Origin: Wocania ichthyoenteri Th78
GTDB taxonomy: Bacteria; Bacteroidota; Bacteroidia; Flavobacteriales; Flavobacteriaceae
Length of the DNA stretch: 64,000 bases
Direction of reading: 5' to 3'
Assembly (NCBI RefSeq): GCF_000789235.1
Contig: NZ_KN525716.1
Location: forward strand, 3,082,100-3,146,099
Shown here one piece after another: positions 38,763 through 42,443 of this stretch. The notes below the pieces were generated by a model. It did not search any database, was not told the origin of the DNA, and saw only the letters and a list, made by a program, of their open reading frames with translations. The position numbers were made by a program, and so were the translations under genes. How positions within the stretch are numbered: position 1 is the first letter of the stretch; the number at the start of each line of letters is the position of its first letter.

Positions 38763-39140
38763 CTACTTTATTCGCCAAGGTGGATTTTTTCTGTTTTTAC
38801 CTGCTTTATATAAAATAATTGAGTTACCGTCCAAATCGTTTAAATGTGCTTCGCGCCATAACCACATTTTATCTTCAGGTTCACTTGTAAATATAATGTC
38901 TTTTGATTTTAATTGTTCTACTAATTCATCAAGGTAATCATCTTCAAAATAGATAGTAATGCCATGTCCTTTTTGTAATTCATCTACTTTATGAATTGAA
39001 AATGTTGAGTTTCCGTTAGGACATTCAAATCTTACATAACGTGGTAAGGCATTAACTATTAAAATTAACCCTAACTTTTTATAAAATTCCGTCGCTTTTT
39101 CAACGTCTAACGACGGAATTGTTATTTGGTTTAAATCCAT
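38763..39140 (-). CDS. VOC-family protein (glyoxalase/bleomycin-resistance-like)
   Basis: 125 residues with a beta-alpha-beta-beta-beta repeat: LNQITIPSLDVEKATEFYKKLGLILI...RYVRFECPNGNSTFSIH and a second module ending AHLNDLDGNSIILYKAG with the conserved metal-ligand-like Glu/His positions. Such proteins detoxify or bind small molecules. Its start overlaps the 3' end of the MFS gene by 10 bp, so it belongs to the same operon and to the same attenuator control. Confidence 0.88.
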   Translation of the reverse strand: MDLNQITIPSLDVEKATEFYKKLGLILIVNALPRYVRFECPNGNSTFSIHKVDELQKGHGITIYFEDDYLDELVEQLKSKDIIFTSEPEDKMWLWREAHLNDLDGNSIILYKAGKNRKNPPWRIK

Positions 39141-40375
39141 AATATTTCTTTTTCTTCTTTTATTAATTGTTTTTTCTTTTTAGCATTTAAGTATTGTTTT
39201 AAAAAGAATAATAAAAACACACAAAGTGCAGCAAGACCAGTAATAATATACCATGTGTTATCAAATCCTAATTTATTTGTCATTTGTAATCCAGCATTAT
39301 GCCCAAAAATATGAGCGATTGAAAAAGCGATAGAATATAATGCCATATACTCACCTTGATTTCCTTTTTTTGCTCTATCCATGGCAAAAGCATTAGAAAA
39401 AGGAAATGCTATCATTTCTCCAAAGGTCATTAAAAGCATACCAATTATTAAAACACCAACCCAAGATGTAAAGTTTAATATAATAAAACTTAGTCCAGTA
39501 AGGATAGCTCCAAAAAGCATTAACCCAGTTTTAGTAAACGTTGTATTTTCTAACCATTTTATTAGAGGCATTTCAAAAGCAAAAATTAAAAACCCGTTCA
39601 TTCCTAAAAGAATACCAATCTCCAATTCTGTTAATTGATGAGCTTCTTTATAATAGATTGGCATTGTTGAAAAATATTGTAAAAACACAACACCAAACAG
39701 TACCATAGCTGCTAAAAATATTAAAAAAGCCTTGTCGTGGTATGCTGATTTTGGGTTTAGGACTTTTATATCATCTAATGTTTTTGTTGTTTTTGGATTC
39801 AATACATTTATTAATACAAATGTTGCTAAAATACATGTAATGCCATCTACCCAAAATAAACCACCATAGCTTAAAGTTGTAATTATTATTCCTCCAATAG
39901 CAGGGCCAGCTGAAAAACCAAGATTAATAGCTAGCCTAATTAAAGTTACAGAACGTGTTTTGTTTTCTGGTTTGCTATAAGCACTTAACGCCACAAACAT
40001 GGCTGGACGAAACATATCTGCTACCAACATAACTAAAAGAATACCTACACAAAAAGAAACAAATGTTGTTAAAAATTGCAATGCAATAAACATTAAACCA
40101 GTAGTTAACAGGCTAAATACCATAACTTTGTAGTATCCAATTTTATCAGTTAATCGACCGCCTAACCAAGAACCAATTACAGACCCTAAACCAAAAGCAC
40201 TCATAATCCAACCAACATCACTTAGGGTAAAGTTTAAACTTGTTGTTAAATAAAGCGATAAGAACGGAATGACCATAGTTCCAGCTCTATTAATTAATGT
40301 TATTAAAGCGAGCCACCAAACTTCTCTAGAAAGCCCGCTAAACGTGTTTAAGTAATTGTTAAATAATGTTTTCAT
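39131..40375 (-). CDS. MFS drug-efflux-type transporter
   Basis: 414 residues, 12 membrane helices of the DHA1 drug:proton antiporter type. Motif A appears as GSWLGGRLTDKIGYYKV after helix 2, and RLAINLGFSAGPAIGG resembles the antiporter motif C region. The gene has a long 5' region with a candidate leader ORF (40499-40555) and terminator (40443-40479), and it overlaps a VOC-family gene downstream. Together they look like an inducible efflux/detoxification operon. Substrate unknown. Confidence 0.92.
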   Translation of the reverse strand: MKTLFNNYLNTFSGLSREVWWLALITLINRAGTMVIPFLSLYLTTSLNFTLSDVGWIMSAFGLGSVIGSWLGGRLTDKIGYYKVMVFSLLTTGLMFIALQFLTTFVSFCVGILLVMLVADMFRPAMFVALSAYSKPENKTRSVTLIRLAINLGFSAGPAIGGIIITTLSYGGLFWVDGITCILATFVLINVLNPKTTKTLDDIKVLNPKSAYHDKAFLIFLAAMVLFGVVFLQYFSTMPIYYKEAHQLTELEIGILLGMNGFLIFAFEMPLIKWLENTTFTKTGLMLFGAILTGLSFIILNFTSWVGVLIIGMLLMTFGEMIAFPFSNAFAMDRAKKGNQGEYMALYSIAFSIAHIFGHNAGLQMTNKLGFDNTWYIITGLAALCVFLLFFLKQYLNAKKKKQLIKEEKEILWI

Positions 40376-40442: not shown

Positions 40443-40479
40443 AAAAATAAAAAGTCCGACTGTGAAGTCGGACTTTTTA
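40443..40479 (-). terminator. Attenuator terminator in the MFS leader
   Basis: On the minus strand AAGTCCGAC, loop TTCACA, GTCGGACTT and a U-tract: a 7-bp GC-rich stem extended by A-U pairs. It lies 68 nt before the MFS start codon and ends nothing but a leader, since the gene on the other side is divergent. The 5' arm (40475-40467) can instead pair with leader segment 40529-40521. Confidence 0.8.
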
Positions 40480-40498
40480 ATATTGTAATATTTTATAA

Positions 40499-40555
40499 TC
40501 ATATCACCACAATATATAATAAGCCCAACACCTTGTCTTTAAACAAGAGGTCCAT
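40499..40555 (-). CDS. Putative leader peptide controlling the MFS operon, 18 residues
   Basis: ATG at 40555 to TGA at 40499 encodes MDLLFKDKVLGLLYIVVI. The ORF overlaps the antiterminator strand: its codons for V-L-G-L contain GUUGGGCUU (40529-40521), which pairs with AAGUCCGAC of the terminator 5' arm over nine positions including two G-U pairs. An upstream CUUGU/ACAAG hairpin (40548-40544 and 40536-40532) lies in the first half of the ORF. The product itself is probably just a sensor of translation. Confidence 0.6.
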   Translation of the reverse strand: MDLLFKDKVLGLLYIVVI

Positions 40556-40606
40556 TGCTTTCTATAAATTGTGACGTTACTACGCATTTTTACTTTTTTG
40601 ATGCTT

Positions 40607-40614
40607 CAAAGCTA
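40607..40614 (-). promoter_or_regulatory. -7 element for the MFS leader transcript
   Basis: On the minus strand TAGCTTTG (40614-40607) matches TAnnTTTG; the transcript would start near 40602, about 47 nt before the leader ATG. No convincing -33 element is visible. Confidence 0.4.
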
Positions 40615-40634: not shown

Positions 40635-40642
40635 TACTTTTG
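40635..40642 (+). promoter_or_regulatory. -7 element of the DUF1684 gene
   Basis: TACTTTTG fits TAnnTTTG; the ATG at 40663 follows 20 nt later. It lies back to back with the MFS leader promoter. Confidence 0.45.
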
Positions 40643-40662: not shown

Positions 40663-41265
40663 ATGAAAAATTTAGTTTTACTATTCTTAATAATTTCAGT
40701 AGCTGGTTGTGCACAAGAAAAGAGACCTATTTTGGGTGAAACCGAATTTCAAAAAGAATTAAATGCCGAATATAAAGATGCTACAACATCGCCTTTAAAA
40801 GATGAAGATAGAACCATTTTTCAGGGTTTAGATTTTTTTAAATTCGATTCTACTTATGTGGTTACTGCAAGTTTTAAAAGAACACCAAACGAAAAAGTTT
40901 TTAAAATGAAAACGACCACAGACAGAAAACCAGAATATGTTAAATATGGGGAATTGAATTTTAATTTAAAAGGAAAAGACTACACGTTAAACATTTATCA
41001 AAACCTAGGTTTAATTGAAAAAGATGGATATGAAGATTATTTGTTTCTACCTTTTTTAGATGAAACCAATGGGTTAGAAAGTTATGGTGGCGGACGCTAT
41101 ATTGATGCTAAAATACCCAAAGGAGATACGATGATAATAGATTTTAATAAAGCCTATAATCCGTATTGCGCTTATAACGATAAATATTCTTGCCCGATTG
41201 TACCAAGAAAAAATTATTTAAAAACTGGGATTGAAGCTGGAGTTAAAGCTTTTGAGAAGCATTGA
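40663..41265 (+). CDS. DUF1684 lipoprotein
   Basis: 200 residues. Signal MKNLVLLFLIISVAGC with lipidated Cys16. The mature part shows the DUF1684 pattern: LKDEDRTIFQGLDFFKFDSTY, KYGELNFNLKGKDYTLNIYQ, YEDYLFLPFLDETNGLESYGGGRY with later NKAYNPYCAYNDKYSCPIVPRKN, which carries the conserved NPYCAY...CPxxP motif. Function unknown. The family B element begins 5 nt after its stop. Confidence 0.92.
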   Translation: MKNLVLLFLIISVAGCAQEKRPILGETEFQKELNAEYKDATTSPLKDEDRTIFQGLDFFKFDSTYVVTASFKRTPNEKVFKMKTTTDRKPEYVKYGELNFNLKGKDYTLNIYQNLGLIEKDGYEDYLFLPFLDETNGLESYGGGRYIDAKIPKGDTMIIDFNKAYNPYCAYNDKYSCPIVPRKNYLKTGIEAGVKAFEKH

Positions 41266-41408: not shown

Positions 41409-42443
41409 TTATTTCGATATTTTTTCGATATTTTCAATTAATTTATTGGTGACAGATATTGCAATTTTGAATTCATCAATAATTTGATTTGTAGTGTCGG
41501 TAAATTTAATCTTTGCTTTTTTTAAATGTGAGTATTTAATCGGCAAGTTTGATACTGAATTTCGCATAACCTTTACTCCATTAATAGCATTTTCCATTGC
41601 AGGTATTATTGGTCTTAAACTATCAGAAGTGTCATTAAGTTTTTTATAATTTTTAGTAATATGAAAACTCATTAATGTAGCTTTTTCATAAGCATAAATT
41701 CCACGTGCATAATGAAAGGAAAAGTCATCAATTTCTTTATTTAATTTTAAAGTAATAGAATTCATAAATTCAGCGTATTTTTTCACTGTTCTCAAAACAC
41801 GTTTATCAAATTCAGTTAACCCTTGTTTTCCGTAATTATCAATTACATTATTGTTTTCGGTTGTTTTTTTTCCAAGAAGAGTTACCAATTCAACAATATT
41901 AGATGTTGCTTCTCTAAAAAATTTCGAGGACTCTGATTCTTCAACAATTTTTTGAAGCTCTAAATCTGTAATTGAGCCGTTTTCTATATCTGTTAGGAAA
42001 TTATTAGGTTCGGCTCCTTCAATAATATTAGTAAGCTCATCAATTGATTTGACATCTAATTCTTTTTTTTTGGAAACTGAAATTTTCCACTGTGTTTTGG
42101 TTTTTTGAAGAGTTGTTTTTGTGATGTTTTCCCAGTATGTTTTATCATCATCAGGTAGATGTCCAACTAGAATTACAGGGACATTAAAATTGAGCCAATA
42201 ATTATAATGTATTTTTGATACATAATGTGTTAAATGATTTTCACTAATATGGAAATTTCCTTCTCCTGTTTTAATTTGAGCTGCAATGAATTGACCAGTT
42301 GGATTTCCGTTTGTAGATTGCTCTATTAAGGCATCTATTCCGACATCAACAATTGGTTGCTCGCGAAAAATCCATTTTACTTCCTTCGTAAAAATGAATC
42401 CAGTCTTATAAATTCCTATTCTTTCGGTGTTACTATCTCTCAT
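41409..42443 (-). CDS. DUF4365 protein, predicted nuclease-like accessory gene
   Basis: 344 residues. The N-terminal DUF4365 domain has ERIGIYKTGFIFTKEVKWIF, then DVGIDALIE and FIAAQIKTGEG, a D...QxK arrangement like PD-(D/E)xK nucleases. The C-terminal half is helical with no recognised domain. DUF4365 proteins often occur in variable or defence-related regions. This gene stands alone and is bounded by an inverted pair of B elements whose arms TTATATGGC/GCCATATAA lie 3 nt beyond the stop and 11 nt before the start. Probably acquired; function not shown. Confidence 0.8.
   Translation of the reverse strand: MRDSNTERIGIYKTGFIFTKEVKWIFREQPIVDVGIDALIEQSTNGNPTGQFIAAQIKTGEGNFHISENHLTHYVSKIHYNYWLNFNVPVILVGHLPDDDKTYWENITKTTLQKTKTQWKISVSKKKELDVKSIDELTNIIEGAEPNNFLTDIENGSITDLELQKIVEESESSKFFREATSNIVELVTLLGKKTTENNNVIDNYGKQGLTEFDKRVLRTVKKYAEFMNSITLKLNKEIDDFSFHYARGIYAYEKATLMSFHITKNYKKLNDTSDSLRPIIPAMENAINGVKVMRNSVSNLPIKYSHLKKAKIKFTDTTNQIIDEFKIAISVTNKLIENIEKISK

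Follow-up and report, generated by a model that had tools for sequence, protein, structure and literature searches.

Attenuators of the trp/his type rest on three mutually exclusive pairings, namely that of a 5′ arm in the ORF with a middle arm, that of the middle arm with an arm of the terminator, and the terminator itself. The leader reported here from Flavobacteriaceae has the same three pairings; however, it precedes an exporter gene instead of a biosynthesis gene, has no long run of a single codon, and falls outside the amino-acid attenuators.

The closest known case is the mef(E)/mel attenuator of Streptococcus, in which a short leader ORF, a terminator and a competing pairing lie before an MFS efflux gene, and a ribosome stalled early in the leader leads to read-through (PMC4335068, in excerpt). 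That leader is 327 nt long and has an 8-codon ORF, MTASMRLR, with a Shine-Dalgarno site (same excerpt), whereas the Flavobacteriaceae leader has 23–28 codons without RLR, comes from another phylum, and carries the left sides of both its antiterminator and a further helix, S1, inside the ORF. Leaders of the ermK/ermD type likewise let leader translation choose between terminator and antiterminator, but they have a macrolide arrest motif and a methylase target, neither of which belongs to the Flavobacteriaceae leader (excerpts of PMC4335068 and PMC5418344). Transcription attenuation is ascribed to mef/mel, vmlR and others outside Bacteroidota (PMC5418344, in excerpt). The tetQ leader of Bacteroides CTnDOT resembles the present one in being drug-related, ribosome-dependent and from Bacteroidota, but there the translation of a ribosomal protection gene is attenuated, while the Flavobacteriaceae leader uses a terminator (same excerpt). 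In toiL/topAI of E. coli, which senses several antibiotic classes, pairing extends along the uORF and stalls at several positions can act, a further likeness; that system, however, works by occlusion of the ribosome-binding site and Rho, not by an intrinsic terminator (PMC12121999, in excerpt).

As for Bacteroidota, clues of leader-peptide attenuation before amino-acid operons are given for Flavobacterium psychrophilum (PMC9723704, in excerpt), leader-like sORFs are mentioned in Bacteroides (PMC7366714, in excerpt), and mRNAs of the phylum are described as generally free of Shine-Dalgarno sites (PMC3155529, in excerpt). Neither 'flavobacteri' nor 'bacteroid' occurs in the main text of PMC2965389. 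No report of a leader such as the present one in Bacteroidota was found in the literature searched, which included few subscription journals and no preprints; within it, and as far as the excerpts go, ribosome-read leaders of drug-related genes belong to other phyla or are translational, as tetQ of Bacteroides.

Comparison among related leaders demonstrates, at the level of sequence, that ORF, terminator and pairings exist and go together with an MFS gene, and it strongly supports the view that this gene would be governed by leader-peptide transcription attenuation. The reading that we favour, with a probability of about 0.87, is a ribosome-mediated transcription attenuator of an MFS exporter, which would be switched on when the ribosome slows near codons 6–12.

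Layout of the locus and the leader ORF

The window, i.e., the whole stretch of 64,000 nucleotides of Wocania ichthyoenteri Th78 DNA that was analysed, carries on its minus strand, in this order, a TAGCTTTG box, a 27-codon ORF, an intrinsic terminator, an MFS gene and an overlapping VOC/glyoxalase-fold gene. It was compared with 80 named loci containing an MFS homologue (72–95% identity over the best segment), each taken with flanks of up to 1.5 kb; with the window, these make up 81 leaders. The box (40607–40614, minus strand) is what we take to be the Bacteroidota -7 promoter type TANNTTTG. This motif stands 17–24 nt ahead of the conserved leader ATG in 78 of the 81 leaders; among background chunks of 67 nt, 6% have it. 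Another -7-like box, TACTTTTG (40635–40642, plus strand), lies 20 nt ahead of a divergent DUF1684 gene (40663–41265, plus strand) and faces the opposite way, which makes two back-to-back promoters. The DUF1684 gene is adjoined by a gene for a DUF4365-domain protein of 344 aa (41409–42443, minus strand).

The gene that would be controlled (39131–40375, minus strand) encodes an MFS transporter of 414 aa (Pfam MFS_1, 201 bits). Its best relatives of solved structure are NorA entries, with E about 1e-9, and no NCBIfam cut-off, including that of a named resistance family, is reached among the matches listed (25 of 31 families). An assignment of the pump to a drug class from homology was dropped, as the matches turned out to be too generic. 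The end of the MFS gene is overlapped by the gene for the VOC/glyoxalase-fold protein (38763–39140, minus strand; 125 aa; Pfam Glyoxalase), and the two are probably cotranscribed. A VOC relative occurs in 46 of 80 loci, so the leader accompanies the MFS gene and not a fixed MFS/VOC operon such as the first-pass annotation had proposed. The divergent DUF1684 gene is found in 65 of 80 loci. Both counts apply within the fetched range, some loci being incomplete.

The leader ORF (40504–40587, minus strand; 27 codons and a stop; MRSNVTIYRKQWTSCLKTRCWAYYILW) is open in all 81 leaders, in each of which an ORF of 23–28 codons ends ahead of the terminator; in L027 the start was assigned by hand to the aligned Met. 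The conserved frame is free of stops in 81/81, while the other two frames meet stops within 20–21 codons in 62/81 and 76/81. Among leader pairs with up to 8 differences in 39 positions, the ratio of non-synonymous to synonymous changes relative to expectation is 0.42 in the leader frame, as compared to 1.05 and 0.75 in the others. The peptide begins with the consensus M-x-x-N-V-T-I-[YC]-[RK]-K-Q-W-T-S, its first half being conserved within the 81; the first 14 alignment columns are gap-free and later length changes are in frame. We infer that the ORF at 40587–40504 is translated.

The first-pass annotation had placed the leader peptide elsewhere, in an 18-codon ORF beginning MDLLFKDK (40555–40499). 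This ORF does exist in the window, as do the other elements described there, the TAGCTTTG box, GTTGGGCTT at 40529–40521, AAGTCCGAC at 40475–40467 and the terminator. As a leader it was rejected: its ATG is missing at that place in 47 of the 81 leaders, the remaining 34 have frames of 5–22 codons, and the conserved ORF overlaps it in another frame. Since the MDLLFKDK frame is not conserved across the 81 leaders, stalling within it is not the mechanism.

Terminator, antiterminator and helix S1

The intrinsic terminator hairpin (40448–40479, minus strand), located by scan and followed by a T-rich tract, has 93.7% of its alignment cells paired and 33 double-changed cells vs. 5.7 in shuffles over the 81 leaders. 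A terminator-like hairpin lies 5′ of the MFS start in 81/81, and in 80/81 it follows the stop of the leader ORF by 23–33 nt. That no gene precedes it, as claimed earlier, was confirmed for the minus strand. On the plus-strand side, it is approached by no gene other than the MFS gene, which is oppositely directed. As to a start of MFS transcription downstream of the terminator, no -7 box was found between terminator and MFS start in any of the 81 leaders (5.9 expected by chance).

The left arm of the antiterminator, GUUGGGCUU (40521–40529, minus strand), lies inside the leader ORF, and its right arm, AAGUCCGAC (40467–40475, minus strand), is the 5′ arm of the terminator. This 9-bp pairing, proposed in the first-pass annotation, is kept in relatives: 92.6% of cells are paired, with all nine pairs in 44/81, and it is extended by AUAUUGU/ACAAUAU. 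The core has no double-changed cell in the 81, all changes being one-sided, and it therefore represents a preserved pairing and not classical covariation. When own arms were compared with arms swapped among the 81 leaders, 0/300 permutations were as good for the antiterminator core, 1/300 for the upper antiterminator and 0/300 for S1, vs. 50/300 for a control pairing.

Helix S1 is absent from the first-pass annotation. The window fold, covariation counts and the permutation test all bear on it. Its 5′ arm covers codons 5–11 (40557–40573, minus strand) and its 3′ arm codons 22–27 (40508–40524, minus strand), which overlaps the left side of the antiterminator. The two helices thus compete for the segment 40524–40508, and the exclusion of the antiterminator by S1 gives the trp-like three-way logic. 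The best duplex between the ends of the leader ORF reaches -8 kcal/mol or lower in 73/81 (range -20.0 to -3.5), examples being ACAAATAAATA/TATTTATTTGT in L050 and TATTTCAA/TTGAAATA in L082. Paired S1 cells amount to 77.7% vs. 25–57% when the arms are slid and 75.8% in column shuffles; double-changed cells number 29 vs. 18.7 in shuffles (9/500 shuffles reach 29), and double-changed pairs 11 vs. 8.2 (27/500 reach 11).

The CUUGU/ACAAG hairpin mentioned in the first-pass annotation, here named P1 (40531–40548, minus strand), is present. It was dropped as a covarying helix and judged by folding comparison alone, since MAFFT aligns this region poorly: its own fold beats the shuffle mean in 71/81, while no more than 2 of 50 shuffles are as stable in just 25/81.

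More distant leaders were collected by means of a covariance model built from S1 and the terminator. In the own genome, the window leader alone scores high (165 bits; next come 39.5, on its own reverse strand, and 39.2), and no other gene there lies behind a high-scoring match. Among 397 Flavobacteriaceae genomes the model matches 130 at E ≤ 1e-6 (hand count) and 309 at E ≤ 0.01; matches near E 1e-4 are noise, since the own genome shows such matches too. Sixty weaker matches (E 2.0e-16 to 5.8e-6), hand-picked and not random, were fetched; the matches of G114 and G283, both with E ≤ 1e-6, and several with E above 1e-6 are not among them. An MFS homologue (44.6–78.1% identity over the best segment) lies behind 59 of the 60, the exception being L176. 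Fifty-four were usable in an arm-swap test, in which L156 retained an upstream Met. Left out were L150 (leader match on the plus strand, in opposite copy orientation, the MFS start being present), L163 (without terminator), L167 (without ORF), L176 (not an MFS locus), and L151 and L168, whose short ORF ends about 49 nt ahead of the terminator.

The peptides of these 54 diverged leaders are mostly unlike that of the window. For the antiterminator, own arms give -11.1 vs. -7.75 kcal/mol for swapped arms (z -10.7, 0/1000 permutations), and for S1 -13.4 vs. -9.8 kcal/mol (z -10.1, 0/1000); the control pairing gives z -2.5 with 5/1000. Removal of seven redundant leaders, three that exactly duplicate loci among the 81 (L134, L142, L143) and four near-copies, leaves 47 with z of -10.4 for the antiterminator and -9.1 for S1 (0/1000 each) and -1.9 for the control (27/1000). 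Relatedness inflates these permutation tests, as seen from the control z. Because the model was built on S1 and the terminator, retrieval may favour S1; it is not biased to the antiterminator, whose left arm is unpaired to the terminator in the model. Similarly, the presence of an ORF in the 54 is not independent evidence, since ORFs were chosen by terminator distance. The promoter box occurs at the fixed distance in 44/54. Promoter-box, folding, footprint and motif counts use all 54, and the total of 135 leaders includes the three exact duplicates.

Two alternatives to an attenuator read by the ribosome can be weighed here. The hairpin might simply be the place where a neighbouring transcript terminates, unconnected with the regulation of the MFS gene, and, being nearly symmetric, it could act on both strands. 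Yet no minus-strand gene ends there, a transcript approaching on the plus strand would be antisense to the MFS gene, the distance from the leader ORF is narrow, and in diverged leaders the ORF has its match in the hairpin 5′ arm; the sequence comparison already contradicts this explanation, and we give it almost no credence. The leader might instead be a ribosome-independent switch, i.e., a ligand riboswitch or a protein-bound leader, with the ORF incidental. Its strong conserved structure would suit such a device: the window leader folds at -48.5 kcal/mol vs. a shuffle mean of -25.2 (z -6.5, 0/200 shuffles). Against this stand the open frame with its coding-type constraint in 81/81 and the fixed distance of the start codon from the promoter. 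Moreover, the pairing sequences are freely replaced, a conserved ligand-like core was not noticed, and the leader region has no Rfam match at the gathering score, all its hits being lower, while the only match elsewhere in the window is a tRNA. A switch of this kind seems quite improbable.

Proposed operation of the switch

The ribosome-mediated attenuator would work as follows. Transcription would start just past TAGCTTTG, which makes the 27-codon ORF the first translatable element. If no ribosome follows, S1 can form first and oppose the antiterminator, so that the terminator would form and the gene stay off. A ribosome that slows while its P site is near codons 6–12 would cover the S1 5′ arm and leave GUUGGGCUU free; the latter would then pair with the 5′ arm of the terminator, and RNA polymerase would continue into the MFS gene. 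If the ribosome is fast and has passed codon 15, it would cover GUUGGGCUU, and the terminator would form. P1 may pause the polymerase and let the ribosome keep pace. The first-pass annotation had proposed that the gene is switched on by early stalling and off by full translation, and the comparison supports this logic with a different ORF. The coupling of polymerase and ribosome, as well as the sense of the switch, we infer.

In folding calculations, S1 is predicted in the transcript just beyond the stop codon in 81/81 and in 52 of the 54 diverged leaders. A footprint model was applied to the transcript in which the terminator 5′ arm is made and the 3′ arm is not yet. With the P site at codons 6–12, the antiterminator probability exceeds 0.5 in 81/81 and in 51–54 of 54, and at codons 16–18 in no more than 8/81 and 5/54. 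The S1 probability is 0.00–0.16 at codons 6–11 and 0.31–0.42 at codon 12, whereas a ribosome at the start codon leaves it at 0.58–0.65; in the model, then, S1 would be opened by an early ribosome. Some results count against a simple form of the scheme. With a ribosome at codons 25–27, the terminator arm of the window re-pairs with the ORF in the model (0.56–0.58).

When no ribosome is present and the transcript is cut before the terminator 3′ arm, the antiterminator is favoured in 67/81 and 31/54 (0.35 in the window), and for this reason S1 alone cannot guarantee the off state. For the full-length leader, the terminator is the preferred equilibrium structure in 81/81 and 54/54 unmasked and, even with the first 30 nt masked, in 80/81 and 53/54. 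In terms of the model, the choice would therefore have to fall during transcription, as in a kinetic switch.

Possible signal and spread of the leader

As to what slows the ribosome, general slowing of elongation is rated the likeliest cue, followed by a specific drug and then by a shortage of charged tRNA. An antibiotic may be the cue, and our guess is that the natural one is a translation inhibitor exported by the pump. A compound able to flip the leader should in turn indicate the substrate of the pump.

In codons 5–14, Thr occurs 152 times vs. 65 expected from nucleotide shuffles in the 81 leaders, and 85 vs. 38 in the 47 non-redundant diverged ones; at least one Thr is present in codons 4–14 of 78/81 and 47/47. 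Cys, Gln, Val, Lys and Trp likewise exceed expectation in codons 5–14 (Lys and Trp more weakly in the 47), whereas Leu, Ala, Gly, His, Phe, Pro, Asn and the acidic residues are depleted. RNA pairing and shared ancestry may account for part of this bias.

One tentative possibility, which we hold at clearly less than even odds, is that the same attenuator senses a single ribosome-targeting antibiotic through a nascent-peptide arrest motif, as the ermK or mef(E) leaders do. The efflux-type target gene and the conservation of the first peptide half within the 81 fit this. However, RLR and IFVI occur in none of the 135 leaders, and K/R-x-K/R in residues 2–14 in just 2/81 and 11/54, which does not make them arrest leaders of the macrolide type; besides, the RNA pairings are kept in spite of wide divergence among the peptides. 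Phenicols and linezolid prefer Ala at -1 for stalling, less so Ser or Thr, and Thr at -1 moderately favours stalling by phenicols and oxazolidinones (PMC8987054, in excerpt). The frequent Thr agrees with this preference, but Ala is depleted, and so, as far as the excerpt goes, the -1 preference fits the leader composition only partly.

The excess of Thr inside the predicted ON zone could alternatively mean that the attenuator senses a shortage of charged tRNA, e.g., for Thr, and not a ribosome-bound drug. Classic three-helix attenuators do sense amino acids. We nevertheless regard this as unlikely: there are usually about two Thr per leader without runs (the longest run of one residue in residues 2–14 is 1–2 in 134 of the 135 leaders and 3 in one), the MFS target is exporter-like and not biosynthetic, and constraints of RNA pairing may cause part of the Thr bias.

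Returning to the attenuator that responds to ribosome speed, we assume, rather speculatively and with considerable doubt, that in a large part of Flavobacteriaceae it is a sequence-flexible sensor gating an MFS exporter, not a fixed drug-arrest peptide. The ON-zone residues (excess Thr, Cys, Gln and Val) would be chosen to respond to an inhibitor class outside the known arrest motifs, perhaps one that affects the charging of tRNA. A widespread attenuator of this type would show that in Bacteroidota the coupling between ribosome and RNA polymerase is tight enough for regulation.

In 20 upstream regions of order-level homologues, a terminator and an ORF are found in two, L190 (of another family) and L208 (of the same family). 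Twelve are without a terminator, including five of genus g127 at 47–49% identity; the hairpins of L189 and L192 probably close the genes that lie upstream, L199 carries a hairpin but lacks an ORF, and L200–L202 were left unplaced.

Several loci stand apart. L151 and L168 have MFS homologues of about 68% identity and leader ORFs of just 16 codons; their leaders may work differently or have decayed. L176 (G278:C5:16090-17550) has a 55-nt palindromic terminator-like hairpin ahead of a secreted-protein-like ORF. At G127:C1:348007-349429, an MFS match of 84% identity has three internal stops and a leader match with E 1.4e-19 ahead of it; the gene may be broken and its leader intact. Finally, on plasmid pAT3 of Aureibacter tunicatorum (Cytophagales; L088, NZ_AP025308.1), a leader lies just 5′ of a 51%-identical MFS gene. 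By eye, it has a 27-codon ORF, a possible S1, TAAACATA/TATGTTTA, and a terminator, and it is likely, judged in the same way, to be a relative of the Flavobacteriaceae leader.
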